DNA of 64,000 nucleotides. Origin: Rhodanobacter humi (GTDB taxonomy: Bacteria; Pseudomonadota; Gammaproteobacteria; Xanthomonadales; Rhodanobacteraceae). The stretch covers positions 3,286,001 to 3,350,000 of the forward strand of contig NZ_JBGBPY010000001.1 of assembly GCF_041107455.1 (NCBI RefSeq), in the 5' to 3' direction. A program made the translations under genes and the position numbers. Shown here in pieces: positions 5,961 through 19,495 of this stretch; within the stretch, counting starts at the first letter, position 1, and every line of letters begins with the position of its first letter. The notes beneath the pieces were generated by a model that was given only the letters and a program-made list of their open reading frames with translations, was not told the origin of the DNA and did not search any database.

Positions 5961-7784
5961 TCAATAACCCGCGGCGAGCCCGGCGGGGCGCCTGGGATCG
6001 TTCGCGCCTTCCAGCAGGCCGGTTTCGGGGTCGACCATGATCGCCTCGTCGGCGCCGATCGAATGGCGCGTCTTGAACGTGTAGCCCATGGCTTCCAGCG
6101 TCTGCCGGGTCTGCGGCGTGACCAGGCCGGGCTCGACGTACACCACGTCGGGATACCACTGGTGGTGCATGCGCGGCGCGTCGATCGCCTGCTGCACGTT
6201 CATGCCGTAGTCGATCACGTTGACGATGCTCTCCATCGTGGTCGAGATGATGGTGGCGCTGCCGGGGCTGCCGGTGATCAGGAACGGCTTGCCGTCGCGC
6301 AGCACGATGGTGGGCGTCATCGAGCTGAGCGGGCGCTTGCCCGGCTCGATCTGGTTGATCACGCCCTGCACCAGCCCGGCGCCGTTCGCCTCGCCGGGCT
6401 TGCCGGTGAGGTCGTCCATCTCGTCGTTGAGGAAGAAGCCGGTGTCGCCGGCGATCTGCCGGATGCCGAACAGGTAGTTGATGGTGTAGGTCACCGCGAC
6501 GGCGGTGCCGTTCTTGTCCATCACCGAGTAGTGCGTGGTGTGGTCGCCTTCAGGCGGGCCCAGGCTGCCCTGGACCTCGGACGAGGGCGTGGCCTTGTCG
6601 GGCAGGATGGTGGCGCGCAGCTTGTCCAGGTGCCCGGCCGAGAGCAGCCGGTCGATCGGGTTGTGCACGAAGGCGGGGTCGCCGAGGTAGGTGTTGCGGT
6701 CGGCGAAGGCGCGGCGCTCCGCCTCGACCAGGTAGTGCAGGCTCCTGGGCGATCCGTAGCTCCATTGGCCGAGCGCGTAGGGCTCGACCAGCTTGAGGAT
6801 CATGCACACGGTGATGCCGCCGGAACTGGGCGGCGGCGCGGACACGACGGTGTAGCCACGGTAGTCGCACTGCACCGGCTTGTCCCACTGCACGGTGTAG
6901 TCGGCGAAGTCCTGCATCGAGAGGATGCCGTGGTTGGCCCGGCTCGCCGCGACCAGCTTGCGCGCGATCGGCCCCTTGTAGAACGCGTCGGTGCCGCCCT
7001 TGGAGATCAGTTCCAGTGTGTGCGCCAGCTGCGTCTGCACCAGGCGCTGGCCGGCGATGTACGGCTTGCCGTGGTCGAGGAAGATCGCCGCCACGTTCGG
7101 GTGCTTGGCGAAGTCCTTCACGCTGTCGTCGAGGATGTCCACGTCGCCCTGTTCGAGCACGTAGCCTTGCTTCGCCAGCTTGATCGCCGGCGCGATGACT
7201 TGCTGCAGCGGCATCGTGCCGTATTTCTTCAGCGCCTCGTCCAGTCCCATCACCGTGCCGGGCACGCCCACGCCGAGCCAGGTGTCGGTGCTGAGTCCCG
7301 GGACCAGGTTGCCCTTGGCGTCCTGGAACATCGTCGGCGTGGCTTTCAGCGGGGCCTTCTCGCGGAAGTCGAGGAAGACGTTGCGGCCGTCCCTGAAGTG
7401 GATGGTCATGAAGCCGCCACCACCGATGTTGCCGCAGCAGGGATGCACCACGGCCTCGGCGTAGCCGACCGCCACCGCGGCGTCGATGGCGTTGCCGCCC
7501 TGCTTGAGGATGTCCAGCCCGACCATGGTGGCCAGGTGCTGCGCACTGACCACCATGCCGTGCTTCGCGGTGACCGGTCTGGCCTTGGCCAGCGCCGCTT
7601 GGGTGGCGGCGGGTGCGCTGGCAATCGCGGGAGTCTTCGGGGCGGCATCGCGGGCGTGCAGCGGCAGGCAGCATGCGGCGATGGCCGCGGCCAGCAGGTG
7701 GCGTCGCCATCCCGGAAGGGGGCGATGCCTGTGCGCCGTGCAGCTCGGCCCTGTCGGGGCTCGCGTCGTGTCGCGGTCGGACAT
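5961..7784 (-). CDS. ggt: Periplasmic gamma-glutamyltransferase
   Basis: Cleaves gamma-glutamyl bonds (glutathione and other gamma-glutamyl peptides) by hydrolysis or transpeptidation in the periplasm. 607 residues from ATG 7784: a signal peptide around residues 24-45 (WRRHLLAAAIAACC), the large-subunit start HGMVVSAQH, and the self-processing Thr nucleophile in GDHTTHYSV at about residue 417, which becomes the N-terminus of the small subunit. PSSGGI lies upstream and the C-terminus ends with GANDPRRPAGLAAGY, typical of the family. The frame runs on upstream to 7913, but a conserved promoter with its -10 at 7816-7822 and GTGGAG 10 nt before ATG 7784 fix the shorter start. Predicted co-regulation with dgcN and the TonB receptor through that promoter. 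Confidence 0.95.
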   Translation of the reverse strand: MSDRDTTRAPTGPSCTAHRHRPLPGWRRHLLAAAIAACCLPLHARDAAPKTPAIASAPAATQAALAKARPVTAKHGMVVSAQHLATMVGLDILKQGGNAIDAAVAVGYAEAVVHPCCGNIGGGGFMTIHFRDGRNVFLDFREKAPLKATPTMFQDAKGNLVPGLSTDTWLGVGVPGTVMGLDEALKKYGTMPLQQVIAPAIKLAKQGYVLEQGDVDILDDSVKDFAKHPNVAAIFLDHGKPYIAGQRLVQTQLAHTLELISKGGTDAFYKGPIARKLVAASRANHGILSMQDFADYTVQWDKPVQCDYRGYTVVSAPPPSSGGITVCMILKLVEPYALGQWSYGSPRSLHYLVEAERRAFADRNTYLGDPAFVHNPIDRLLSAGHLDKLRATILPDKATPSSEVQGSLGPPEGDHTTHYSVMDKNGTAVAVTYTINYLFGIRQIAGDTGFFLNDEMDDLTGKPGEANGAGLVQGVINQIEPGKRPLSSMTPTIVLRDGKPFLITGSPGSATIISTTMESIVNVIDYGMNVQQAIDAPRMHHQWYPDVVYVEPGLVTPQTRQTLEAMGYTFKTRHSIGADEAIMVDPETGLLEGANDPRRPAGLAAGY

Positions 7785-7815
7785 TCGCTGGGTCTCCACG
7801 CCATGTCCGGGCAGC

Positions 7816-7880
7816 ATAGTCACAGCCACGGTGACCGCTCCAATGAAAAGACGGGCACAAGGCATAACCGGCGATTGCGG
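7816..7880 (-). promoter_or_regulatory. LysR-type promoter of ggt (copy A of a shared element)
   Basis: On the plus strand: ATAGTCA (7816-7822; -10 TGACTAT for ggt), exactly 17 bp, CCAATGAAAAG (7840-7850; -35 side CATTGG), exactly 12 bp, then CATAACCGGCGATTGCGG (7863-7880), a T-N11-A-like LysR box. The same parts with the same spacings occur upstream of dgcN and between the TonB receptor and M61 genes. Predicted transcript start near 7809 gives a 25-nt leader for ggt. Confidence 0.8.
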
Positions 7881-7901
7881 GCGCGCCGCTGCCATGGGCC
7901 G

Positions 7902-7942
7902 GTAGGAGCGCACCCCGGACTTGATCCGGGGTGCGCTCCTAC
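7902..7942. repeat. Perfect 18-bp inverted repeat (REP-like hairpin)
   Basis: GTAGGAGCGCACCCCGGA, a 5-nt loop CTTGA, then its exact complement. It sits 9 bp after the sulfotransferase stop (7952) and upstream of ggt. The GTAGGAGCG ends recur in the repeat cluster at 27142-27221, so this is a member of a dispersed hairpin family that may also terminate transcription. Confidence 0.75.
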
Positions 7943-7951
7943 AGGGGCGGC

Positions 7952-9547
7952 CTATTCCGCCGGAATGCCCGCATCGCGCAGGCGCTGGCGCAGGCGGTCG
8001 AGCTTGTCGCCGTAGCGCGCGCTGCGTGCGGTGTCGCGGCGCAACGGCTGGCGCACCTGCGCCGCGCTGGGCGTGCTCAACACGGTGCGCGAGGTCTTGT
8101 GGAATTCCAGGCAGGCCGGCTCGAACGGCAGGCCGCAGAAATCCAGCAGGCGGCGGATGGTCGGTTCCGGTTCGGCGACCAGGGTTTCGTACTCAAGATC
8201 GAACACCCGATCCGGATAGCGTTCCAGCCAGAAGCGGGTCAGGCGAATGAAGTCGATGCAGTAGTCGGCCATCTCGTCGAGGTCGCAGGTGAAGCCGCTC
8301 TGCTCGGTGAAGAGCTGGCGGAAGCACGCCAGGCAGGTCTCCACCGGATCGCGCCGCACCACCACCACGCGTGCTGCCGGCAGCATCGCCAGCGCGGCGC
8401 CCACCAGATACCAGGTCACCAGGCTCTTGTCGGCGAAGCGCGGCTTGGCCTTGCGCCATGGCGCGGTGCGCGCGAGATATTCCTTGCCCAGGCGTTGCCA
8501 GTCCGTCGCGCTGGCATGCGGCGTCCACAGCGGGAACGCGGAGTGGCGGCGTCGCGTTTCCGCGTCGATCACCTGCGACAGGTCCTTGATCTCGTTCGCA
8601 CCCTCGACTTCCGCGTGCGAAGCGAGGATCTGCTCGACCAGGGTCGAGCCGGAGCGCGGGACGCTGACGATGAAGATGGCTTCGCGGCCCAGCGCGGGGT
8701 CCGGCGGGGCAGGCATGTCGTGCGCGAAGATGCGCTGGATCGCTTCCACGCGTCGCCGTTCGCCCGTGGCGTTCCAGTGCACGCGCTGGCGCCGCGAGGC
8801 ATTGGCCTGGCGGAACATCTCGAAGGCTTGCGCGTAATCACCCTGGTCTTCCAGCGCCTTGGCCATCGAGAAACCGAGCAGTTCGCGGTCGCGGGGCGAC
8901 TGCGCACCTCGCGTCATGGCCTGGCGCAGGTTGGCCGCATCCGCGGCGTCGAAGCGCACCGTGTTGAGGTTGGACAGGCCGAACCAGCCCTCGGCGTTGC
9001 CGGGGTCGACGCGCAGCACCGCGCGGAAGCCGGCCACGGCATCATCGATCCGGCCCAGGCTGGCTTGCGCCTTGGCCAGCGACAGCCGGGCCGGCAGATG
9101 TGCGGGGGCGAGTTCCAGCGCGCGCTGCAGCGCGGCGATGGCATCTTCCGTGCGCGCCTGCCGCCAGCATGCTTCGCCGAAGTTAAACCAGGCCGACGCG
9201 GAGGCGGGCGCCAGCTCGCAGGCGCGCTGCAGCTGCGCCATGGCTTCATCGATCTCGCCGCGTTCGTGCAGCGCGATGCCCAAGCCCACGCGCAGTTCGG
9301 CGTCTTCCGGCCAGACTGGCAGCACACGCCGGAAACAGTTGGCCGCGGTGGCCTGGTCGCCGCGGTGCTGAGCCATCACGCCGAGCATGCGCAACGCATC
9401 CGCGTCGTTCGGCGCCAATGCCAGCGCCTGCCGGATCGAGCGTTCGGCGGCGTCGAACTGCCGTTGCTGCCATTCCGCGCGCGCCCTCGCCAGCCACTGG
9501 GCGGCTGCGGGCGGCAGGGGCGTGGACTGCACGGTTTCGCTGCTCAT
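7952..9547 (-). CDS. TPR-repeat sulfotransferase family protein
   Basis: 531 residues with two parts. Residues about 10-255 are TPR-type helical repeats (ALAPNDADALRMLGVMAQHR, LAPASASAWFNFGEACWR, VDPGNAEGWFGLSNLN). Residues about 285-510 are a PAPS-dependent sulfotransferase domain: VSVPRSGSTLVEQILASH (about 290-307) is the 5'-phosphosulfate loop and RVVVVRRDPVETCLACF the 3'-phosphate-binding strand-helix. No signal peptide, so probably cytosolic. The acceptor is unknown; relatives in xanthomonads often lie beside Oar-like TonB receptors, as here. It lies 84 bp downstream of the receptor gene on the same strand, but a strong terminator separates them. Tyrosylprotein- or small-molecule sulfation are both possible. 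Confidence 0.85.
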   Translation of the reverse strand: MSSETVQSTPLPPAAAQWLARARAEWQQRQFDAAERSIRQALALAPNDADALRMLGVMAQHRGDQATAANCFRRVLPVWPEDAELRVGLGIALHERGEIDEAMAQLQRACELAPASASAWFNFGEACWRQARTEDAIAALQRALELAPAHLPARLSLAKAQASLGRIDDAVAGFRAVLRVDPGNAEGWFGLSNLNTVRFDAADAANLRQAMTRGAQSPRDRELLGFSMAKALEDQGDYAQAFEMFRQANASRRQRVHWNATGERRRVEAIQRIFAHDMPAPPDPALGREAIFIVSVPRSGSTLVEQILASHAEVEGANEIKDLSQVIDAETRRRHSAFPLWTPHASATDWQRLGKEYLARTAPWRKAKPRFADKSLVTWYLVGAALAMLPAARVVVVRRDPVETCLACFRQLFTEQSGFTCDLDEMADYCIDFIRLTRFWLERYPDRVFDLEYETLVAEPEPTIRRLLDFCGLPFEPACLEFHKTSRTVLSTPSAAQVRQPLRRDTARSARYGDKLDRLRQRLRDAGIPAE

Positions 9548-9580
9548 GTCGTCAAGCTACACAAGTCGCCCGATGGCTGC

Positions 9581-9608
9581 AAAAAAGCGCCGGGTATGAA
9601 CCCGGCGC
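9581..9608 (-). terminator. Rho-independent terminator after the TonB receptor gene
   Basis: On the minus strand a perfect 9-bp stem GCGCCGGGT / ACCCGGCGC with a 4-nt loop is followed by six T. It starts 24 bp after the receptor stop codon and lies 34 bp before the sulfotransferase start, so expression of the latter needs readthrough or its own promoter. Confidence 0.8.
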
Positions 9609-9631
9609 AGGGGGGAGTGCCTGCATGAAGA

Positions 9632-12600
9632 TCAGAAATCGTAGGAGACGGAGAAGCGCACGCTGCGCGGCGGATGGGTGTCCTGTATGCGGCCGTAGTC
9701 CGAATTGGGGCTGCTGGTGGTGCCGAAGAAGTCGTTGTAGAAGATCGTCGTCTGGTCGTTCAGCACATTGAACACGGAGAGGTTGAAATCGAGTTTCTGC
9801 TGCGCCCACTTCGGCTTGTAGTCAACGCTGAGATCGATGTCGTGGACCCACGGCGTGGTGCCGAGCGAGCCGGGTGGAACGGGTACGCCGCCGCACCAGT
9901 AATAGGTGCGTGAACCGTGCAGGCGGACCTGATTCGGGCCATAGGCACCACGACACATCACCGGCGTGCCCGAGGTGATGTACAGGTTGGCGCCGACCGT
10001 CCATTCCGGGGTGAGCGCGTAGGCGCCGAAGATCTTGAACTGGTGCTTGCGGCTGTTCGGCAGCACGCCGCCCGACCACTCCATGCGCTCCGGGAAGTCC
10101 CATGCGGTGGTGAGCGATTCGTAGGAGCCGCCCTGCTGCGAATACGTGCTCACCGGGCCTTCGGTGTTGCCCCAGGTGCGCGCGAACACGTAGTCGAACT
10201 TGGCGAACCACTTGCCGTCCCAGGCGTGCTCCAGCGACAGGTCCAGCGAGAGGTAGCGGCGTTCCGGCCCCTTCGGGAAGCGCTGGTCGGTGCCACTGAG
10301 CGTCACCGGCACGAGACCGCCGTTCGGATCCTTCATCCAGAGGTAGTTGGTCGCTCCCGGGTTGATCAGCACCAGGCTCTGCGCGTAGTTGGAGCAGTCC
10401 TGCGGCGTCATCCACGCATAGCCCTGCGCTCGGCCGGCGGCGCATTCGATCTGCTCGTCGTCGAAGTCGTCGATGATGCGATTCATCTTCTGGTAGGTGC
10501 CGGTGGCGCTGAACACCCAATCCGTACCCAGCATCTTGAACTGCTGCTGCAGGCCCAGCACGTAGTTGTCGGAGAACTCGGCCTTGGCGTTGCGCGCCGC
10601 GGAGACGCGCGGATCCTTCGCCTGGCCGTACTCGTTGTCGATCGATACGCCGGTCGACGGGGTTTGCGGCAGGGGTGTGAAGCCGGTCGGCACGCCGGTC
10701 ACCGGGTCGATGCCGGTGTAGGTGCCGTAGATGCCCGCATTCGTCACCGGTGCGGCGATGGACAAGGCCACGTTGGTCGGCAACGAGAGGAAATAGCGGC
10801 CGGCGTTGCCGAACACCTTCAGCGTGGAATCGCCGTGCACGTCCCAGCTGAAGCCCAGGCGCGGCGCCCACTGCGGCTTGGTCTCGCGGATGTAGGGCAC
10901 GCCGGAGGCGTCGTAGTTCACGAACTGGTCGTTGCGCAGGCCCAGGTTCAGCAGCAGGTTCGGAGTGACCTGCCAGTTGTCCATCACGTACTGGGCGCGC
11001 TGCGTCACGCGCACGCTGGCGACGCTGAGGTCGGTGTGCTGCTGCACGTAGTAGCAGTGGGTCTTGCCGTCGGGGCCGACGGCGCATTGGTTGGATGGCG
11101 CGACATAAGGCGGCACGTTGGGATCGAGGCCGAACACCGGTGTGCCCGGATCGGCCGCGCCGTATATCCACTGATAGCCCGGACCGGTGTTTTGCGAACC
11201 GTCGTTGAGGTCGTAGGAATTGATGTTGTCGATGCCGACCTGAAGGTCGTGGCTGCCCAGCTTCCAGTCGAGGCTGAGGCGGTAGTTGGTGATCGACTCG
11301 CGATGGTCGGGATCGGCGAGCGTGGAATTGGACTGCGCATTGATGATGCCGCCCGGCGGGGCGAAGCGCGGATCCTGCACGGATGCGCTGGCGATGTGCG
11401 GCAACTCGGGGTCGTAGCCCGGGTAAGCGGGCTGCGTCGAGTAGTACTGGCCGTGCATCTTGCCGTAGGTGGCGTTCAGCGTGATGTCGTCGGTGATGTA
11501 GGAGGTGTAGTTCAGCACCCCCATCTTGAACACGGTCTTGTTGTACTGGCCGAGGTAGGCGAAATCGCCTTTCTGCAGCGTGCCGTAGTCGAAGTTGTAG
11601 TAGGTGCCCTGCGTCTGGTGCGCGTTCTGCAGGTAGCTCAGCGTCAGCACGTTGCTGTCGTTGATGTTCCAGTTCAGCTTGCCGAACAATTTCGGGTCAT
11701 GCACGCTGAACAGGCTGGTGACGCCGTTGCCGAACTCCGGGGTGTTGCGATACCGGCTGTCGTCCTTCTCCGCGCTCAGGAAGAAGAACAGCTTGTCCTT
11801 GATCAGCGGGCCGCTGACGTAGGCGTCGTAGATCGTCTCCTGGGCCCGGTCGGCGTTGCGGTACACGGCCAGATCGCCGGGCGAGTAGGCCGGATCGCCT
11901 GCCATCAGCGGATTGGCGTAGCGGAGGTTGTCCGGCCTGGCACGCAGGCTGGCCGGCTGCCACAGCACGCGCGCGCCGAAGTGCCAGTCGTTGGTGCCGC
12001 TCTTGCCGATCTGGTTGATCACGCCGCCGATGGAGCGGCCGTAGCGAGCGTCATAACCGCTGATGTAGGTCTGCTGCTGTTCGATCGCGCCGTAGGGCAG
12101 GGTGACGCCGCCCGAGTTGTTGAGCGCCTCGGTGACGTTCATGCCGTCGACGTAGTAAGCGTTCTCCGCTGTGGAGGCGCCACCGAACACGTTCATCGGC
12201 GTGCCCAGCGGGCCGGTGCCCAGTTCGGGCGAGCCCATGTTGACGCCCGGTGCCAGCAGGGCGATGTCTTCGGCGGTGCGCGCCAGCGGCAGCTGCTGCA
12301 ACTGCTTGGAGGTGATCGTGGTGACCTGGTTGGTGGTGGTCACGTCGATCGGCGGAGTGACGTTGGCCGTGACCTTGATTGCATTGAGGTTCACCGCGTT
12401 CGCGGCGCCGGCCGCGAAATCGACGGCCACCGCGCCCGCCGCCACCGGCGAGACGTCGGTGCGGCTCTGCACGACCTTGCCGTCCTGCAGCAGCGACACC
12501 GTGTAGGTGCCGACCGGCAGGGTGATCGAATACCTGCCCGATGCACTCACCGGGATGCTGCGGTTGAAGCCGCCGGCGCCGGTGATCTGGATGGTTTCGC

Positions 12601-12757
12601 CCGGTGCCACCGGCACCGAACCGTAGATGGTGCCGTTGGTCGCCTGTGCCCAGGCCGTGCCTGCGGCGCCGCAGGCAAGCAGGCCGATGGCAAGGGGCAG
12701 CGCCTTGCGCCGGAAGACGTCGTTGCGGTACGGCGAGCGCCGGGATTTGCCCTTCAT
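9632..12757 (-). CDS. TonB-dependent receptor, Oar-like with carboxypeptidase-regulatory domain
   Basis: 1041-residue outer-membrane receptor. A signal peptide (LPLAIGLLACGAAGTAWAQ) ends near residue 38. Residues about 40-115 form a carboxypeptidase-regulatory-like beta domain (ISVSASG-type strands, GRYSITLPVGTYTVSL), then the plug (about 130-260, with DGMNVTEALNNSGGVTLP and YGRSIGGVINQIGKSGTND) and a 22-strand-type barrel ending in the aromatic VRFSVSYDF. Oar-like receptors take up peptides or proteins or act in their export; the ligand is not known here. Its neighbours (ggt, M61 peptidase, GltS) suggest peptide or gamma-glutamyl substrates. A LysR-type promoter 340 bp upstream points at it, implying a long 5' leader. 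Confidence 0.92.
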   Translation of the reverse strand: MKGKSRRSPYRNDVFRRKALPLAIGLLACGAAGTAWAQATNGTIYGSVPVAPGETIQITGAGGFNRSIPVSASGRYSITLPVGTYTVSLLQDGKVVQSRTDVSPVAAGAVAVDFAAGAANAVNLNAIKVTANVTPPIDVTTTNQVTTITSKQLQQLPLARTAEDIALLAPGVNMGSPELGTGPLGTPMNVFGGASTAENAYYVDGMNVTEALNNSGGVTLPYGAIEQQQTYISGYDARYGRSIGGVINQIGKSGTNDWHFGARVLWQPASLRARPDNLRYANPLMAGDPAYSPGDLAVYRNADRAQETIYDAYVSGPLIKDKLFFFLSAEKDDSRYRNTPEFGNGVTSLFSVHDPKLFGKLNWNINDSNVLTLSYLQNAHQTQGTYYNFDYGTLQKGDFAYLGQYNKTVFKMGVLNYTSYITDDITLNATYGKMHGQYYSTQPAYPGYDPELPHIASASVQDPRFAPPGGIINAQSNSTLADPDHRESITNYRLSLDWKLGSHDLQVGIDNINSYDLNDGSQNTGPGYQWIYGAADPGTPVFGLDPNVPPYVAPSNQCAVGPDGKTHCYYVQQHTDLSVASVRVTQRAQYVMDNWQVTPNLLLNLGLRNDQFVNYDASGVPYIRETKPQWAPRLGFSWDVHGDSTLKVFGNAGRYFLSLPTNVALSIAAPVTNAGIYGTYTGIDPVTGVPTGFTPLPQTPSTGVSIDNEYGQAKDPRVSAARNAKAEFSDNYVLGLQQQFKMLGTDWVFSATGTYQKMNRIIDDFDDEQIECAAGRAQGYAWMTPQDCSNYAQSLVLINPGATNYLWMKDPNGGLVPVTLSGTDQRFPKGPERRYLSLDLSLEHAWDGKWFAKFDYVFARTWGNTEGPVSTYSQQGGSYESLTTAWDFPERMEWSGGVLPNSRKHQFKIFGAYALTPEWTVGANLYITSGTPVMCRGAYGPNQVRLHGSRTYYWCGGVPVPPGSLGTTPWVHDIDLSVDYKPKWAQQKLDFNLSVFNVLNDQTTIFYNDFFGTTSSPNSDYGRIQDTHPPRSVRFSVSYDF

Positions 12758-13097
12758 GTATGCACTCCACTGTGGTGAAACGCCAGGTGCGGCGGCTTGC
12801 GGCCCGTCAGGGCCCGTTGTTTCATCGCATCGCGTGCGGAGCGAGGGCTTGCGTAACCCTGTTGGTCGCAGCCGTCGCCATGCCCTTGTCAGCCAATCGA
12901 TGACCCCTCGTCATGGATGGTTTGCGTGCCGGCTCCGGCAGCAGCGGGGCGGGCGGATCGAACGTGGACCTGGCGTGCCGGAACACGGCGGCGTCGCGGC
13001 ATGGATGCGGCGCGGCGACGTCTCGTGGACGAGGCCCGTGCCTTGCTGCGACGCACATCGAGCGGACATCCTCCATGCTCACAGTGCGTCACCGAGC
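12758..13097 (-). other. Predicted long 5' leader of the TonB receptor gene
   Basis: If the promoter at 13098-13162 drives the receptor, the mRNA begins near 13091 and has a leader of about 330 nt. I see no known riboswitch motif and no convincing small gene. A loose copy of the LysR half-sites (GCGTAACC-N5-GGTCGC) occurs near 12851-12868 but lacks the rest of the element. Confidence 0.4.
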
Positions 13098-13162
13098 GTA
13101 GTCCGCAGCGAGCGACAGTCGCCAATGAATAATCTTGCGCGCGCCATAACTGAGGGTTATGC
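13098..13162 (-). promoter_or_regulatory. LysR-type promoter between TonB receptor and M61 peptidase (copy B)
   Basis: GTAGTCC (13098-13104, -10 region on the minus strand), 17 bp, CCAATGAATAA (13122-13132), 12 bp, then the near-perfect palindrome CATAACTGAGGGTTATG (13145-13161). Spacing is identical to the ggt and dgcN copies. The -10/-35 side faces the TonB receptor; the M61 gene lies on the other side of the box, as the lysR gene does in the dgcN copy, so both may be controlled. Confidence 0.75.
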
Positions 13163-13243
13163 GTGCCATTCGGCGCTTGAAATTTTTCTCGCGAGGCGTT
13201 CCATTCGGCGCACACGCATTCCATTCGCGCACCGGGGAAACGC

Positions 13244-15133
13244 ATGAAACGATGGCCATTGCTACTGGGCACGCTTGCCCTCGTCGCGTCCGCATCCTGC
13301 ATCGCGCATGCGGATGCAGGCGTTCCCGCCAAGTCCGTCGAACTGGTGGTGAGCCTGCCCGATCCGGCGCAGAAAGTGCTGTACGTGCACGAGACGATGC
13401 CGGTCGCGCCCGGCAAGCTCACGCTGTACTACCCGAAGTACATTCCGGGCGACCATGCGCCGGACGGCCCCATCGGCACGATGATGGGGCTCGAAATCAG
13501 CGCCGGCGGCAAGCGCATCGCATGGCGGCGCGACGCCGTGGACATGTTCACCTTCCACCTCGATGTGCCGGCCGGCGTGGACAGTCTCGACATCCGCTTC
13601 CAGTTTCCGGACACGGACCGGATCACGCCGAACCTGATGGATCTCACCTGGGACCACGTGGCGCTGTACCGCGCGGGCGAGCCGACCAAGGCGCAGATGT
13701 TCGAGCCCACGTTGGTGATGCCCGCGGACTGGAACTACGGCACCGCGCTGGAAACCGCCACGCGCGACGGCGGGCGTGTCCGCTTCAAGCCCGTGCCGTT
13801 CAACACGCTGGTCGATTCGCCGGTGATCGCCGGCAAGCACTTCCGGCAGATCGACATCACCCCGGCGGGCTCCGGCGTGCATCGCTGGCTCGACATGGTG
13901 GGCGACAGCGAGGCCGCACTGCAGATCACGCCCGAACAGCTTCAGGGTTACCGCAACCTGGTCGTGCAGGCGCAGGCGTTGTTCAAGTCGCACCACTACA
14001 CGAACTACCACTTCCTGCTGACGCTGAGTGACCACACCTCGGTCGGCGGCCTGGAGCACCACCAGTCCAGCGACGACCGCGCACGTGGCGGCTCGCGCAT
14101 GTTCGCCGACCCGGAACATTTCATGCTCGACGGTTCGCTGCTGCCGCACGAGTACACGCATTCGTGGAACGGGAAATTCATGCGTCCGGAAGGCCTGTGG
14201 CAGCCCGACTTCGAGCAGCCCGAGATCGCCGACGGGCTGTGGGTGTACGAGGGCCTCACGGTCTACCTGGGCGACGCGCTGACCGCGCGCAGCGGCCTGT
14301 GGTCGGCGCAGGAATGGCGCGAGGCGCTGGCGTATCGCGCGGCGACGTTCGCGCATCGCCCCGGCCGCGAATGGCGGCCGTTGTCGGACACCACCCGGGC
14401 CGCACAGCTGCTGTACGGCGGGGACATGGGTTGGGTGAACTGGCGCCGCGCCACCGACTTCTACCGCGAAGGCCAGTTGCTGTGGCTGGCGGTGGACACG
14501 AAGATCCGCGCGCTCAGCCACGACAAGCGCACGCTGGACGATTTCGCGAAAGACTTCTTCGGCAAGGACGACGGCAGCTACGTCACCCGCACCTACACCT
14601 TCGACGACGTCGTCGCCGGCCTGAACACGGTGCAGCCCTGGGACTGGGCGAAATTCCTGCACGGCTGGATGGACGGCGTGGGCGACGAAGTGCCGCTGCT
14701 GTCCGGCATCGAGCAGAGCGGCTGGAAGCTGGTCTACACCGATACGCCTTCGCGCTACCAGAACGCTGTCGAGAACGTGGGCAAGAGCGAGTTCAGCGCG
14801 TCGGGCGTCGACGAGACGTTCTCGGTGGGGCTGTTCATCAACCACGACGGCAGCATCATGGACGTGTTGTGGCAAGGCCCGGCCTTCAAGGCGGGACTCG
14901 CACCGGGCATGAAGCTGCAGGCGATCGACGGGCACGCCTACACCCCGCGCGTCCTGCGCGACGCGATCGTGCGCGCGCAAAAGGACCGGCAGCCGATCCG
15001 GGTCCAGGCACAGATCGACGGCGTCAGCCGCACGCATGCGCTGCACTACGACGGCGGGTTGAAGTATCCGCACCTGGTGCGCATACCCGGCACGCCGGAT
15101 TACCTGGGTGAGATCCTCGCGCCGAAGCGGTGA
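13244..15133 (+). CDS. M61-family (glycyl) aminopeptidase with PDZ domain, exported
   Basis: 629-residue zinc aminopeptidase. A signal peptide (KRWPLLLGTLALVASASCIAHA) precedes an N-terminal beta domain; the gluzincin motif HEYTH lies at residues 302-306 with the third ligand in the following GLWVYEGLTVYLG helix. A PDZ domain occupies about residues 535-620 (VLWQGPAFKAGLAPGMKLQAIDG). M61 enzymes release N-terminal glycine or other small residues from peptides, here in the periplasm or outside. GGGGAAACGC precedes ATG 13244. It is divergent from the TonB receptor and shares its LysR-type regulatory region, which fits a peptide-scavenging role. Confidence 0.93.
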   Translation: MKRWPLLLGTLALVASASCIAHADAGVPAKSVELVVSLPDPAQKVLYVHETMPVAPGKLTLYYPKYIPGDHAPDGPIGTMMGLEISAGGKRIAWRRDAVDMFTFHLDVPAGVDSLDIRFQFPDTDRITPNLMDLTWDHVALYRAGEPTKAQMFEPTLVMPADWNYGTALETATRDGGRVRFKPVPFNTLVDSPVIAGKHFRQIDITPAGSGVHRWLDMVGDSEAALQITPEQLQGYRNLVVQAQALFKSHHYTNYHFLLTLSDHTSVGGLEHHQSSDDRARGGSRMFADPEHFMLDGSLLPHEYTHSWNGKFMRPEGLWQPDFEQPEIADGLWVYEGLTVYLGDALTARSGLWSAQEWREALAYRAATFAHRPGREWRPLSDTTRAAQLLYGGDMGWVNWRRATDFYREGQLLWLAVDTKIRALSHDKRTLDDFAKDFFGKDDGSYVTRTYTFDDVVAGLNTVQPWDWAKFLHGWMDGVGDEVPLLSGIEQSGWKLVYTDTPSRYQNAVENVGKSEFSASGVDETFSVGLFINHDGSIMDVLWQGPAFKAGLAPGMKLQAIDGHAYTPRVLRDAIVRAQKDRQPIRVQAQIDGVSRTHALHYDGGLKYPHLVRIPGTPDYLGEILAPKR

Positions 15134-15147
15134 GCCATTGCCTTGCG

Positions 15148-15174
15148 CCCCCTCTCCCACTTGCGGGAGAGGGG
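15148..15174 (+). terminator. Hairpin after the M61 gene
   Basis: CCCCTCTCCC and GGGAGAGGGG form a stem 15 bp after the M61 stop codon. There is no long T-tract. The same C/T-rich hairpin is a common repeat in xanthomonad intergenic regions, so it may be a repeat that also terminates. Confidence 0.45.
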
Positions 15175-15205
15175 TATGGGGAGAGGGGGCTCTTGCAAGC
15201 TTCAA

Positions 15206-15775
15206 AGCGGTTTCGGACGCCTGTCGGCGCCCGAGCTACTTCTCTTTTGCTTGTCCAAAAGAGAAGTAGCCAAGAGAAAACGACACCCCGATGCGGCGCT
15301 CTCCGGGCATCCTGCCCTCCGAGTACGTGAGGCGTGGCCGGGCTTTTCGGCCGGACTCCTGTCCGGTCGAAAAGGCGAGTCCATCCATGGCCTCGCCCGC
15401 TGCGCGGCCTGATCGTCCCCACCTCACCGCCGCATAGGGGCCCCGGAAAAGCAGCGCGCTCCTGCGCGCAGAAGCAACGGCCAGAGCAAGGCAAAACAAA
15501 GCGAAGCGCGGCAGGACTTCTTTCCTCAGCCATCGAGCACGGCGCGGTATGGCCGCACTGTGTATCGCGTAGGCGGGAATGGCTCCAAAAACCTCGAAAC
15601 GTCCTGCTTGTAATTCCGGCGGGTTGAATCAGGCCATTTCTCTTGGTTACTTCTCTTGACTCCGGGCATCCCGCCCTCCGCCCTTCGGGCCGGCTGCGCC
15701 GTTCGCCACCGCTCCTGCGGTGGCGTGGGCCAGCAAAGAGAAGTGACTCGGGCGCCGAAGGCGTCCGAAACCGCT
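15206..15775. repeat. 570-bp non-coding element with about 43-bp inverted terminal repeats
   Basis: The left end AGCGGTTTCGGACGCC (15206 on) continues through GGCGCCCGAG and ACTTCTCTTTT; the right end (to 15775) is its inverted copy with a few mismatches and one indel over about 43 bp. The interior holds no credible gene on either strand and includes partly repeated text (CCGGGCATCC, CCGCCCTCCG). This fills most of the 685-bp gap between the M61 gene and gltS. It looks like a dispersed, non-autonomous xanthomonad repeat. Confidence 0.65.
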
Positions 15776-15818
15776 CTGTTGTTTGACGATCGATCACACT
15801 TCCTCAAGCCACAAGCCG

Positions 15819-17024
15819 TCAATGCCAGGCGTTGACGAAGCCCGTGATGATGATCGCGTTCGTGAAATCGATCAGGAACGCGCCCACCACGGGCGCCACC
15901 AGGAACGCGCGCGGCGCGGGGCCGTAGCGTTCGGTCAGCGAACTCATGCAGGCCACGGCGTTCGCGGTGGTGCCCAGCATGAAGCCGGTGAAGCCGCTGG
16001 CCATCACGGCGGCGTCGTAGTCGCGCCCCATCAACTGCAGCAGCGGCCAGCAGCAGAACGCCAGCACCAGGATCGACTGCACCGCCAGGTTCGCCAGCAG
16101 CGGTAGCGCCAGGCCGGCCAGATCCCACAGATGCAGGTCCATCAGCGCCACGACGAGGAACAGCGAGAGCGCGGTGTTGCCGATCAGTTCCATCGCGCGC
16201 GTCGACAGCCCGAACCAGCCCAGGCGGTCGTCGATGTTGCGGATGATCGCGCCGACCAGCATCGCGCCGATGTAGCTCGGCAGGGTCACGCCCAGCCGGC
16301 CCAGGCCGTCGCCGATCCACGCGCCGATGCCCATCGCCAGCAGCATGTACACCAGGCTCTTGAGCCCGCCGTAGGCCGGATCGACGGTGCGCTGCTCGGG
16401 TGCCGTCGCCGCCATCGGTGCAGGAGTGTCCGCGCCTGCGGTTGTTGCGGAAGCCGGGCGCAGGCCATGGCGTTCGATCAGCATCGCCGCGATCGGCGAG
16501 CCGAAAATGGAGCCGAGCACGATGCCGGCCATCGCGTTGGCCAGCGCCACGCTCTGCGCGCCATGCACGCCGACCTTCTCGAACAGCGGCGCGAAGGCCA
16601 TCCCGGTGGCAGGGCCGCCGGTGAGCGTGACCGAGCCGGTGATCACGCCGAACAGCGGCGGCAGGCCGAAGGCCTTGGCCATGGCTATGCCCAGCAGGTT
16701 CTGCACCACCGCCAGCACGCTGGCCAGGGCGAGGAAGAGCAGGATCTGGCGGCCGCCGACCTTGAGCAGGCTCGCACTGGCGTTGAAGCCGATGCCGGTG
16801 AAGAACGCGATCATCAGCGGCTGCTGCCACGCGGTGTCGAAGCGTATCGGCGTGACGTCCCAGTGCCTGCACGCGAGCATGAACAGCGCCACCAGCAGGC
16901 CGCCGATCACCGGCGCGGGAATGCTGAAACGCATCAGCAGTGGCACGTGCCGACGGATCGCGTAGCCGACCAGCAGGAACAGCCCGCCGCAGGCCAGCGT
17001 CTGGATCGAGTCGAGTATCAGCAC
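15819..17024 (-). CDS. gltS: Sodium/glutamate symporter
   Basis: 401-residue inner-membrane protein with two inverted halves of five to six helices, the GltS/ESS family length. Signatures include RFSIPAPVIGGLL near the N-terminus, TGSVTLTGGPATGMAFAP in the first re-entrant region (about residues 130-150) and the mirrored FMLGTTANAVACM segment near the C-terminus. GltS carries L- and D-glutamate with Na+ in characterised homologues. It reads in the same direction as dgcN but is separated from it by a MITE-like element; with DgcN, uptake of D-glutamate is the natural reading. Own promoter not evident in the 45 bp before the element. Confidence 0.94.
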   Translation of the reverse strand: MLILDSIQTLACGGLFLLVGYAIRRHVPLLMRFSIPAPVIGGLLVALFMLACRHWDVTPIRFDTAWQQPLMIAFFTGIGFNASASLLKVGGRQILLFLALASVLAVVQNLLGIAMAKAFGLPPLFGVITGSVTLTGGPATGMAFAPLFEKVGVHGAQSVALANAMAGIVLGSIFGSPIAAMLIERHGLRPASATTAGADTPAPMAATAPEQRTVDPAYGGLKSLVYMLLAMGIGAWIGDGLGRLGVTLPSYIGAMLVGAIIRNIDDRLGWFGLSTRAMELIGNTALSLFLVVALMDLHLWDLAGLALPLLANLAVQSILVLAFCCWPLLQLMGRDYDAAVMASGFTGFMLGTTANAVACMSSLTERYGPAPRAFLVAPVVGAFLIDFTNAIIITGFVNAWH

Positions 17025-17068
17025 GCGCAGTGGTCCCGGGCGACGGCGGGCGTTTCTGCACTATGCCG

Positions 17069-17340
17069 TAAGAGCCTGTTCAATGTCTCCGCGTGGCCCG
17101 CGCCGGGAGCTGTTTGCACGCAGACCAAGGAAGAGCGAAGGAGTGGACGTCCGTCCACGACCGAGTGATGACGCAGGTATGTGGGCAAACAGACCCGGCC
17201 CGGTGGGTTGCCCTCGAATGGCCGCCATGCGGCGGCGCGCGGCTTGGCCTGCCAGCCAGGCAGGCGCTGCGCCACGCGCCACCACCTGACGGCCATTCGA
17301 GGGCAACGCGAGCTACGCGGAGACATTGAACAGGCTCTTA
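17069..17340. mobile_element. 272-bp MITE-like element between dgcN and gltS
   Basis: The ends are perfect 26-bp inverted repeats (TAAGAGCCTGTTCAATGTCT and six further bases at 17069-17094, mirrored to 17340). TA at both tips could be the target duplication of an IS630/Tc1-like transposase. A second internal inverted pair (GTTGCCCTCGAATGGCC near 17209 and its complement near 17289) strengthens the folding. No transposase is encoded. It begins 2 bp after the dgcN stop and lies 45 bp upstream of gltS. Confidence 0.75.
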
Positions 17341-17342
17341 GT

Positions 17343-18383
17343 TCACCCCGGGAAGCATGCAAGGAGGTTGTCCGCGATCGCCTCGACGCCCATGGTGACC
17401 GGATCCTGGCAGGGCAATCCGAACAGCGCGCCGACCCGTGCGCAGGCCGCCTGCGCTTCGCCTGCCGGCATCTTCGAGGTGTTCAGCGCGATGCCGACGG
17501 GCCGCACCGCGGGATTGGTCAGGCGGGCGGCGGCAAGGTTCGCTTCCATGCAGGCCACCAGCTCCGGGATCGGGTAGTGCGGCAAGCCGCGCATGTGCTG
17601 CCGCGTCGGCTCGTGGCAGAGCACCAGCGCATCGGGTTGCGAGCCGTGCAGCAGGCCCAGCGACACGCCGGCGTAGGAGGGATGGAACAGCGAGCCCTGG
17701 CCTTCGATCAGGTCCCAGCCGTCGTCGTCGCGCGCGGGCGAGATCGCCTCGGCGGCGCCGGAGATGAAATCCGCGACCACCGAATCCACCGGGATGCCCG
17801 CGCCGGCGATCAGGATGCCGGTCTGCCCGGTGGCGCGGAAATCCGCCGCGCAGCCGCGCGCGCGCAGCGAACGCTCCAGCGCCAGCGTGGTGTACATCTT
17901 GCCGACCGAGCAGTCGGTGCCTACCGTGAGCAGGCGCCGGCCGGCGCGCGGCTTGCCGTTGCCGACCGGGATGCCCGGTCCCGGCGCGCGCGCGTCGAAC
18001 AGCGCGCGGCCGTTGTGACGCGCGGCGGCCACGATGTCGGCGTTGTCGCGCAGCTTGTGGTGCAGGCCGGAGACCACGTTGAGCCCGGCGTCCAGCGCGG
18101 CGACGGCATCGGCGACGATCTCCGGGCCCATCACGCCGCCGGCATTCGCCGCACCGATCACCATGGTGTCGGCGCCGCGGGCCTTGGCCAGGGCGAAGTC
18201 GAGGTCGGGCAGGCCCAGCGTCACCGCGCAATCCGGGCGGCGGTGCTGGCCGAGGCAATGCTCCGACCGCCAGAACGCCAGTCCGCGCGCGGTCTTGATC
18301 GACAAGTCGTCGATCGCGCTGCCCAGGTACAGCAGGTAGGGCGGCCCCCAGCGGACTGCGGTTTCTGCGCCTTGGTTCGACAT
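17343..18383 (-). CDS. dgcN: DUF1611 protein, DgcN-type D-glutamate N-acetyltransferase
   Basis: 346 residues from ATG 18383. The DUF1611 architecture is clear: an N-terminal Rossmann-like part (LYLGSAIDDLSIKTARGLAFW, GADTMVIGAANAGGVMGPE, GLNVVSGLHHKL) and a C-terminal P-loop domain starting at GTDCSVGKMYTTLALE (about residues 155-170), then LIEGQGSLFHPSYAGVSLGL. Members have been described as DgcN, acetylating D-glutamate to N-acetyl-D-glutamate, which the racemase DgcA then inverts for L-glutamate metabolism. A LysR gene is divergent and GltS follows, as expected. The promoter -10 at 18435-18441 rules out the longer upstream start. No dgcA is present in the window. Confidence 0.85.
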   Translation of the reverse strand: MSNQGAETAVRWGPPYLLYLGSAIDDLSIKTARGLAFWRSEHCLGQHRRPDCAVTLGLPDLDFALAKARGADTMVIGAANAGGVMGPEIVADAVAALDAGLNVVSGLHHKLRDNADIVAAARHNGRALFDARAPGPGIPVGNGKPRAGRRLLTVGTDCSVGKMYTTLALERSLRARGCAADFRATGQTGILIAGAGIPVDSVVADFISGAAEAISPARDDDGWDLIEGQGSLFHPSYAGVSLGLLHGSQPDALVLCHEPTRQHMRGLPHYPIPELVACMEANLAAARLTNPAVRPVGIALNTSKMPAGEAQAACARVGALFGLPCQDPVTMGVEAIADNLLACFPG

Positions 18384-18434
18384 GCGGGCCGTGACTCCAT
18401 GAGGTTGCGTACCGCATCGCGCGGCGCGACGAGG

Positions 18435-18499
18435 ATAGTCAGCGGCCACCGCGGGCCGCCAATGAAAAGACGGCAAGTAGGCATAACCGACGGTTGTGG
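18435..18499 (-). promoter_or_regulatory. LysR-type promoter between dgcN and the LysR gene (copy C)
   Basis: ATAGTCA (18435-18441), 17 bp, CCAATGAAAAG (18459-18469), 12 bp, CATAACCGACGGTTGTGG (18482-18499). The position in the dgcN/lysR divergent space is the classic site for a LysR autoregulatory box and identifies the regulator that most likely reads all three copies. Predicted transcript start near 18428 gives a 45-nt leader for dgcN. Confidence 0.85.
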
Positions 18500-18589: not shown

Positions 18590-19495
18590 ATGCGCCTGCG
18601 CTACATCGAGTTGTTCCATGCCGTGCTGAGCACCGGCAGCCTGACCGGGGCGGCCAGCCTGCTGAACATCTCGCAGCCGGCCGCGAGCAAGGCCTTGCAG
18701 CAGGCCGAGAACCACCTGGGCTTCGCGCTGTTCAGCCGCGTGCGCGGCCGCTTGCAACCGACCCAGCAGGCACTGCTGATGCGCCACCACATCGACCGCA
18801 TCATGCGGGAGATGTACGACCTGCAGCGCCTCTCGGCGAACATCACCCGGCCCGAGAGCCACCCGCTGCGGGTGACCTGCACGCCCACGCTGGCGCAGGT
18901 GGTGGTGCCAGACGCGATCGCCCGGCTGGGCAAGGTCTACCCCGGCACCATCGTCGAGCTGTACACCCAGCACTCGGCGGTGATGTGCGAGTCGCTGATG
19001 CTGCGCGAAACCGACATCGGGCTCACGCTGCAGGACCTGAGCCACCACGGCCTGCTCCAGCAGGCGCTGTGCCACGGCAACATCATGGTGGTCGCGCCGC
19101 CGGGCTGGTGGTCGGCGCGCGAACTCGCGCGGCCGCTGCCGATCGGTGAGCTGGCCGGCCAGCCGATGATCGGCATCACGGTGCAGGATGCGCTGGGCAA
19201 CATGCTGCAAGGTCACCTGGCCAAGATCGATCCCGCGCCGCGCACGAACGTCTGGGTGCAGACCTACCAGCTGGCCTGCGCGCTGGTCGCGCGCGGCGGC
19301 GGACTGGCGCTGGTGGACCCCTTCACCGCGCGCTGCAGCAAGGAACCGCTGCAGATGCGCCCGCTGAAACTGCAGCTCGACGTCACCCTGCGTGCCGCCT
19401 TCCGCTCGGACAACCCGTTGAACACGGTGCAGCGGCGTTTCCTCGACTACGTGCGCGAATTCGCGCAGGGCCTGCTGGCGGTCGGGGCGGCATAG
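18590..19495 (+). CDS. dgcR: LysR-family regulator, DgcR-like
   Basis: 301 residues from ATG 18590 (GGAAGGGAAGG upstream). The N-terminal winged helix is typical: YIELFHAVLSTGSLTGAASLLNISQPAASKALQQAE, residues about 4-40. The effector domain begins near residue 90 (LRVTCTPTLAQVVVPDAI) and has the two-lobe periplasmic-binding-like fold of LysR proteins. It is divergent from dgcN across 206 bp that contain a LysR box, so I infer that it controls dgcN and, through identical boxes, ggt, the TonB receptor and probably the M61 gene; D-glutamate or a derivative is the expected co-inducer. The symbol is by position and family, not by direct recognition. Confidence 0.8.
   Translation: MRLRYIELFHAVLSTGSLTGAASLLNISQPAASKALQQAENHLGFALFSRVRGRLQPTQQALLMRHHIDRIMREMYDLQRLSANITRPESHPLRVTCTPTLAQVVVPDAIARLGKVYPGTIVELYTQHSAVMCESLMLRETDIGLTLQDLSHHGLLQQALCHGNIMVVAPPGWWSARELARPLPIGELAGQPMIGITVQDALGNMLQGHLAKIDPAPRTNVWVQTYQLACALVARGGGLALVDPFTARCSKEPLQMRPLKLQLDVTLRAAFRSDNPLNTVQRRFLDYVREFAQGLLAVGAA

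Follow-up and report, generated by a model that had tools for sequence, protein, structure and literature searches.

A predicted three-promoter regulon in Rhodanobacter humi and its DguR-type LysR regulator, probably rewired to the salvage of peptidoglycan-derived peptides

The DNA described here (the window) is a stretch of 64,000 nucleotides from Rhodanobacter humi, assembly GCF_041107455.1, contig NZ_JBGBPY010000001.1, positions 3,286,001 to 3,350,000. It contains three copies, A, B and C, of one promoter element, all within 10.7 kb, which precede the gene ggt, a gene for a TonB-dependent receptor and dgcN, and beside copy C the gene of a LysR-type regulator. The elements, the genes behind them and the regulator are as follows.

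7813..7879, minus strand: element A, predicted ggt promoter directed towards ggt; palindrome 7863-7879, CTTTTCATTGG box 7840-7850, -10 hexamer TATGCT 7813-7818
13095..13161, minus strand: element B, predicted promoter of the TonB receptor; palindrome CATAACTGAGGGTTATG 13145-13161, box 13122-13132, -10 hexamer TACGCT 13095-13100
18432..18498, minus strand: element C, predicted dgcN promoter; palindrome 18482-18498, CTTTTCATTGG box 18459-18469, -10 hexamer TATCCT 18432-18437
5961..7784, minus strand: ggt, gamma-glutamyltranspeptidase (PF01019), with the start at 7784 as chosen by us and element A 56 bp upstream
9632..12757, minus strand: TonB-dependent receptor (Pfam Plug and barrel), first gene behind element B, with a leader of about 330 nt
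17343..18383, minus strand: dgcN (DUF1611, Pfam; solved relative 7xrj), behind element C
18590..19495, plus strand: LysR-type regulator (HTH_1, PF00126, 8.3e-17; LysR_substrate, PF03466, 2.4e-28), a homologue of Pseudomonas DguR

Read directly from the three sites, the shared order is (A/G)TAGTC(A/C), 17 bp, CCAATGAA(A/T)A(A/G), 12 bp and CATAAC-N5-(G/A)TT(A/G)(T/C)G. The spacings are equal among A, B and C and the spacer sequences differ. The initial annotation of this DNA had described three equally spaced copies with a GTTNTG right half-site; the element is present at all three sites, but in copy A, before ggt, this half reads ATTGCG. A 40-base core pattern derived from the three sites themselves has three matches in the window at no more than three mismatches and none in 100 dinucleotide shuffles; at the same threshold it has three matches in the whole genome of 4,146,847 bases, where the reversed control has none. 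An independent test was made with a sequence model of 75 positions for which 77 sites were used, all from other genera; it finds exactly the same three elements in this genome (E values 1.9e-17 for C, 1.4e-11 for A and 1.9e-11 for B) and none besides at E up to 1; its first pass scored 150 of 1880 candidates. Within the reach of the pattern and model searches, the regulon of this genome consists of the three promoters A to C.

The anatomy of the element was studied on 96 oriented sites with no more than two mismatches and fetched flanks, the three of the window included; the loci were picked by a fixed-gap pattern and the sites without reference to a -10 hexamer. In the direction of transcription the rough consensus is CCACAACCNNCGGTTATGCC - TGCCCGTCTTTTCATTGGYGG - spacer - TGACTATGCTC. 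Column 87 is the first position of a TANN(C/A)T hexamer in 81 of the 96 sites, column 86 in eight, and the conserved -10 TATGCT gives the element its direction. The gap between box and palindrome is constant in 91 of 91 sites when gaps of 0-40 are allowed. If transcription is assumed to start about 7 bases past the -10, the palindrome is centred near -65, with the CTTTTCATTGG box following near -38, next to the -35. In LysR-type promoters a palindromic site of the T-N11-A type near -65 is joined by a second one near -35, at fixed spacing to a -10; with positions counted from this predicted start, the element is a canonical LysR-type promoter. The ATAGTCA box of the initial annotation coincides in part with the -10 hexamer read on the opposite strand, so that the predicted promoter is directed at ggt, the TonB receptor and dgcN and points away from the M61 peptidase gene on the other side of element B and from lysR. 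A gene follows in the promoter direction at 94 of 94 sites, the remaining two of the 96 lying at a locus edge. The right half-site varies with the target: all 23 dgcN sites have GTTGTR, and 26 of the 29 receptor sites have GTTATG or GCTATG.

Among 147 genomes of the family, 38 contain the element at no more than three mismatches, with 113 matches as opposed to one for the reversed control; 103 matches in 31 genomes have no more than two. An orthologue of lysR is found in 29 of the 147 (65-100% identical, two being fragments), and at no more than one mismatch the element occurs in 29 of 29 lysR-positive and in one of 118 lysR-negative genomes. Further matches include some at three mismatches in three genomes without lysR (G057, G084, G144) and one at two mismatches in G063. 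In six congeners without lysR the other-genera model gives no match better than E 0.07. With a slightly wider pattern, at no more than one mismatch, 19 of 299 genomes of the order contain the element, 16 of these in the family. Relatives with a genus name belong to Rhodanobacter, Dyella, Frateuria, Fulvimonas, Rudaea and, in one case, Luteimonas; several others are metagenome-assembled genomes. This tracking of lysR by the element agrees with the initial proposal that the adjacent LysR protein reads it, and as reader of A to C that protein is, by such comparisons, well supported.

It had also been suggested to look for the element before the same genes in relatives. The gene-by-gene count used all 113 elements, all 46 dgcN matches and the best 50 ggt, 22 M61 and 45 receptor matches, some rows being partial genes, and the enrichment was found for all three targets. 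Of the 28 dgcN orthologues (at least 73% identity), 23 have an element no more than 700 bp away. Of the five that lack one, four are members of a gene chain that begins with ggt or the receptor gene and itself follows an element; the fifth is cut off by the end of a contig. None of the 18 distant dgcN paralogues has the element. It precedes 25 of the 27 receptor matches of at least 69% identity, the misses being a partial match (G142) and a very fragmented genome (G138) with the element at the end of another, M61-bearing contig; at 57-66% identity the count is four of seven, and at 49-56%, among the matches listed, 0 of 11. Among the best 50 ggt matches, the element stands before 9 of the 26 from lysR-positive genomes and before none of the 24 from lysR-negative ones.

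A related element, CCAATGAAA-N14-GATAAC-N5-GTTATA, was observed at about 8960-9400 in each of four further loci (L083-L086, from genomes G050, G036, G065 and G091), between another lysR with a penicillin amidase gene and genes for an extracytoplasmic function sigma factor and CHAT proteins. With three mismatches it was considered as part of the regulon and rejected, as it adjoins a different LysR; these sites were left out of the anatomy, model, first-gene, gap and subtype counts and apparently belong to a second, separate LysR system.

A scan with the lysR alignment delivered homologues outside the group in Stutzerimonas (51% identity), Pseudogulbenkiania (43 and 41%) and Vogesella (40%), and more distant ones in a Comamonadaceae metagenome-assembled genome (39%) and in Roseomonas-like bacteria (36%). 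The Stutzerimonas and Pseudogulbenkiania homologues lie next to genes for a DAO-type oxidoreductase, a binding protein and a RidA-like protein, a neighbourhood which we take to be the dguRABC layout. A homologue is present in 27 of 119 Pseudomonadaceae genomes and has a dguA-like gene beside it in 27 of 27; in the three lower-scoring paralogues looked at there is none. For 18 of these 27 homologues the same geometry recurs in an element 20-76 bp from the lysR start (related pattern, no more than three mismatches), and in eight Pseudomonadaceae genomes the exact CCAATGAAA-N14-CATAAC-N5-GTTATG adjoins lysR. Ten Pseudomonadaceae genomes without lysR have matches with two or three mismatches elsewhere, and a second Pseudogulbenkiania locus has an element with three. 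The LysR of the window shares 67% identity in the DNA-binding domain and 42% in the effector domain with the dguA-adjacent group, and 48% and 34%, respectively, with three paralogues without dguA. Some effector-domain motifs (TQHS/T, QTYQLA, DPF/LTA) are partly conserved, which is suggestive only. A quick tree places the Rhodanobacteraceae proteins as a clade (SH-aLRT 100) among the dguA-adjacent Pseudomonadaceae proteins, with a root made uncertain by a very long outgroup branch. A divergent dguA (DAO) with RidA and a binding protein was not found next to lysR in the window; because lysR adjoins dgcN there, the regulator is classed as DguR-type and not as DguR itself. The Comamonadaceae homologue (L159:5769-15740) lies beside genes for MurQ, an N-acetylmuramoyl-alanine amidase, Peptidase_S13 and an M74 murein endopeptidase, possibly an independent peptidoglycan cluster.

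Behind the 96 sites the first gene is a TonB receptor in 29 cases, dgcN in 23, a second TonB receptor family in 14 and the ggt family, here a BLAST cluster wider than the best 50 ggt matches, in 14. Less frequent are D-aminoacylase-like (four), amidohydrolase (three) and glucokinase genes (two); a D-amino-acid transaminase, a sodium:solute symporter family (SSF) transporter, a serine hydrolase and two unassigned genes occur once each, and two sites lie at locus edges. Gene calls in the fetched loci come from a simple coding-score script instead of curated annotation, and cluster identities in the following chains rest on one representative per cluster. The chains include dgcN-dgcA-ggt-lysA-(beta-lactamase-fold hydrolase), D-aminoacylase-dapF-transaminase and receptor-amidohydrolase-dadA-permease, as well as, in one genome each, SSF-murA-BadF kinase-murQ and glucokinase-GH18-SSF-murA-BadF kinase-murQ. 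In the 29 genomes with fetched loci DgcA was found in 16, a D-amino-acid transaminase in ten, LysA in eight, N-acetylmuramoyl-alanine amidase in five, DapF in three, MurQ, GH20, BadF kinase and MurA paralogue in three, and NamZ in two. The receptor, dgcN and ggt part of the regulon is widespread. The handling of D-glutamate, diaminopimelate and D-amino acids, together with the amidase and MurQ, suggests peptidoglycan as the source material. The chains of L054, L058 and L062 combine a MurA paralogue with MurQ, an SSF transporter and a kinase of the BadF type; a MurA-type enzyme looks unusual in such catabolic company.

The further genes around the elements of the window are:

7952..9547, minus strand: TPR-sulfotransferase (Pfam), the gene after the TonB receptor
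13244..15133, plus strand: M61 family aminopeptidase (Pfam), divergent neighbour of element B
15819..17024, minus strand: gltS, sodium/glutamate symporter (Pfam), behind dgcN

Two of these, gltS and the TPR-sulfotransferase gene, are probably operon partners which the initial annotation did not include. Of 29 chains in which an element drives the receptor gene first, 23 continue with the TPR-sulfotransferase gene, which is for this reason probably part of the receptor operon. DgcN-GltS is the commonest chain behind element-dgcN sites (seven of 23). DgcN is a D-glutamate N-acetyltransferase, as we assume. At 15819-18383 dgcN is followed by gltS without dgcA, and the fetched loci lack dgcA in 13 of the 29 genomes; dgcA was not among the genes around dgcN in the window, and no dedicated search for it or for amino-sugar genes was made in the rest of the genome. 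The carboxypeptidase-regulatory domain of the receptor scores below its Pfam cut-off. A riboswitch in the receptor leader (12757-13095) was considered and rejected, as no Rfam family reached its gathering score anywhere in the window.

The M61 gene had been counted among the targets of element B. Of the best 22 M61 matches, 20 have the element no more than 2.2 kb away on their divergent side, but in eight of the 22 orthologues the distance is 1.5-1.65 kb, and a permease gene intervenes in the seven of these that were fetched. The conserved -10 points away from M61, and G117, a lysR-negative genome, carries M61 but no element. In five intergenic regions aligned from the same genus a block GGCGCTTGAAA is conserved, in which no clear -10 facing M61 was seen. 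Control of M61 by the element is thus unsupported, which weighs against the regulon as first claimed; the proposal of one LysR protein over uptake, gamma-glutamyl cleavage, a peptidase and D-glutamate processing is retained for the receptor, ggt and dgcN, which carry the element in relatives, and is unproven for the peptidase. Otherwise the initial account named the regulon and its likely reader correctly; on function it was narrower than the data, which add the -10, the relation to DguR and the wider gene content in relatives.

We propose that the LysR protein encoded at 18590-19495 activates promoters A to C. A tetramer would occupy two sites, the palindrome CATAAC-N5-GTTRTG with its centre near -65 and, abutting the -35, the CTTTTCATTGG box near -38, and an inducer, most likely D-glutamate, would open a weak sigma-70 promoter with the -10 TATGCT. 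Outer-membrane import through the TonB receptor, with the TPR-sulfotransferase, gamma-glutamyl cleavage by ggt, glutamate import by gltS and conversion of D-glutamate by dgcN would thereby be switched on. D-glutamate as inducer is a reasoned guess by analogy with DguR. From the shared operator we infer that a DguR-type protein kept its site and exchanged its target, from dguABC with the D-glutamate dehydrogenase in Pseudomonas-like bacteria to peptide scavenging in Rhodanobacteraceae. The scavenged substrate would be peptidoglycan-derived peptides containing gamma-D-glutamate, with D-glutamate, typical of peptidoglycan, as the signal; as a purpose such peptides appear to be the best fit to the gene content of the family, and a weaker one for the genome of the window. 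Taken as a whole we consider it likely that a DguR-type regulator, probably sensing D-glutamate, was rewired to salvage peptidoglycan-derived peptides.

Several observations weigh against this proposal. The genomes of the family sample are related to one another, so that the counts are not independent and the Fisher value for the co-occurrence of element and lysR assumes more independence than there is; moreover, the loci were selected by pattern matches. Elements are present in the lysR-negative genome G128, an assembly of about 220 contigs from a genus that has lysR elsewhere. Nine of the 27 Pseudomonadaceae homologues have no element within three mismatches, although for some of them a degraded version can be seen by eye, and none was found in the Comamonadaceae genome or in one Pseudogulbenkiania genome searched. 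Because the effector domain is only 42% identical to that of the dguA-adjacent group, the inducer could have changed. LysA and the D-amino-acid transaminase occur near elements in two genera, DapF, the amidase, the set of MurQ, GH20, BadF kinase and MurA paralogue, and NamZ in one only (g24), and the regulon of the window consists of three core operons without these peptidoglycan genes.

The latter points favour a reading in which the same regulator and regulon serve other gamma-glutamyl or D-amino-acid compounds, such as glutathione, gamma-glutamyl dipeptides, poly-gamma-glutamate or free D-amino acids, since in the window only ggt, the receptor with the TPR-sulfotransferase and dgcN-gltS are concerned and the amino-sugar genes, too, are confined to one genus. 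We regard this as unlikely in view of the family operons with DgcA, LysA, DapF, D-amino-acid transaminase, DadA and D-aminoacylase-like genes, of MurQ in two genomes, and of the Comamonadaceae homologue beside MurQ, amidase, Peptidase_S13 and M74. It is far less probable that another LysR-type protein reads the elements: such regulators are numerous in these genomes and their half-sites alike, as is generally known, but the presence of the element matches this lysR (29 of 29 against one of 118 genomes), and the six congeners lacking it have no convincing model match. Recent duplication of one promoter segment, or chance, without a common regulator is hardly credible. The closeness of the copies within 10.7 kb would suit it, but their spacers differ, the shuffles gave no match, the element stands at orthologous genes in other genera and the half-site subtype tracks the target; the shuffles, the other-genera model and the conservation across genera rule it out, and selection rather than duplication, as the initial annotation had it, keeps the copies alike.

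In comparison with known systems, the proposed DguR-type regulon is closest to DguR-dguABC of Pseudomonas aeruginosa, reportedly described by He et al. in 2014. Common to both is a LysR-type regulator divergent from a D-glutamate catabolic operon; the dguA-adjacent Stutzerimonas homologue is 51% identical and the operator geometry recurs in many Pseudomonadaceae dguR-dguA gaps. Unlike there, the usual partner is dgcN and not the D-glutamate dehydrogenase gene dguA (P. aeruginosa DguR itself lying outside the comparison), and the regulon extends to TonB receptors and ggt and, in relatives, to D-amino-acid, diaminopimelate and amino-sugar genes. The DgcN-DgcA pathway of D-glutamate, which Yu et al. 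are said to have reported in 2023, shares dgcN (DUF1611) with the window and dgcA with the fetched loci of 16 of 29 genomes; here, in contrast, it stands under a DguR-type promoter together with outer-membrane import and ggt, and the operon of the window has no dgcA. To our knowledge, few studies have dealt with regulators and TonB receptors that are specific to peptidoglycan peptides from outside the cell. In titles, abstract openings and selected passages of the literature no link of DguR or of a LysR regulon to peptidoglycan scavenging was found. In the parts consulted, PMC10926688 presents DguR as the regulator of the dguA promoter in D-glutamate catabolism, PMC12363236 and PMC10845958 treat the DgcN-DgcA pathway, and PMC13046382 presents AmpR as a LysR-type regulator of the beta-lactamase AmpC that responds to a muropeptide signal from wall turnover. 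AmpR would thus resemble the present regulator in type and in a signal of peptidoglycan origin, but its target is a beta-lactamase, whereas the targets here are import and catabolic genes.

The analysis defines an operator, assigns a likely regulator to it, lists about 100 candidate target promoters from about 30 genomes and yields a hypothesis on the inducer, together with a testable context for uncharacterised genes such as the TPR-sulfotransferases, the receptors and the beta-lactamase-fold hydrolases. A further-reaching view, for which we see even chances, is that a D-glutamate-sensing LysR protein acts as the master switch of peptidoglycan scavenging from the outer membrane to the cytoplasm, with dedicated TonB receptors and their sulfotransferase partners for muropeptides or stem peptides, and with D-glutamate as the signature of foreign cell wall. 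The family would also offer a case of a regulator that keeps its DNA site as its regulon shifts from one enzyme operon to a scavenging programme.

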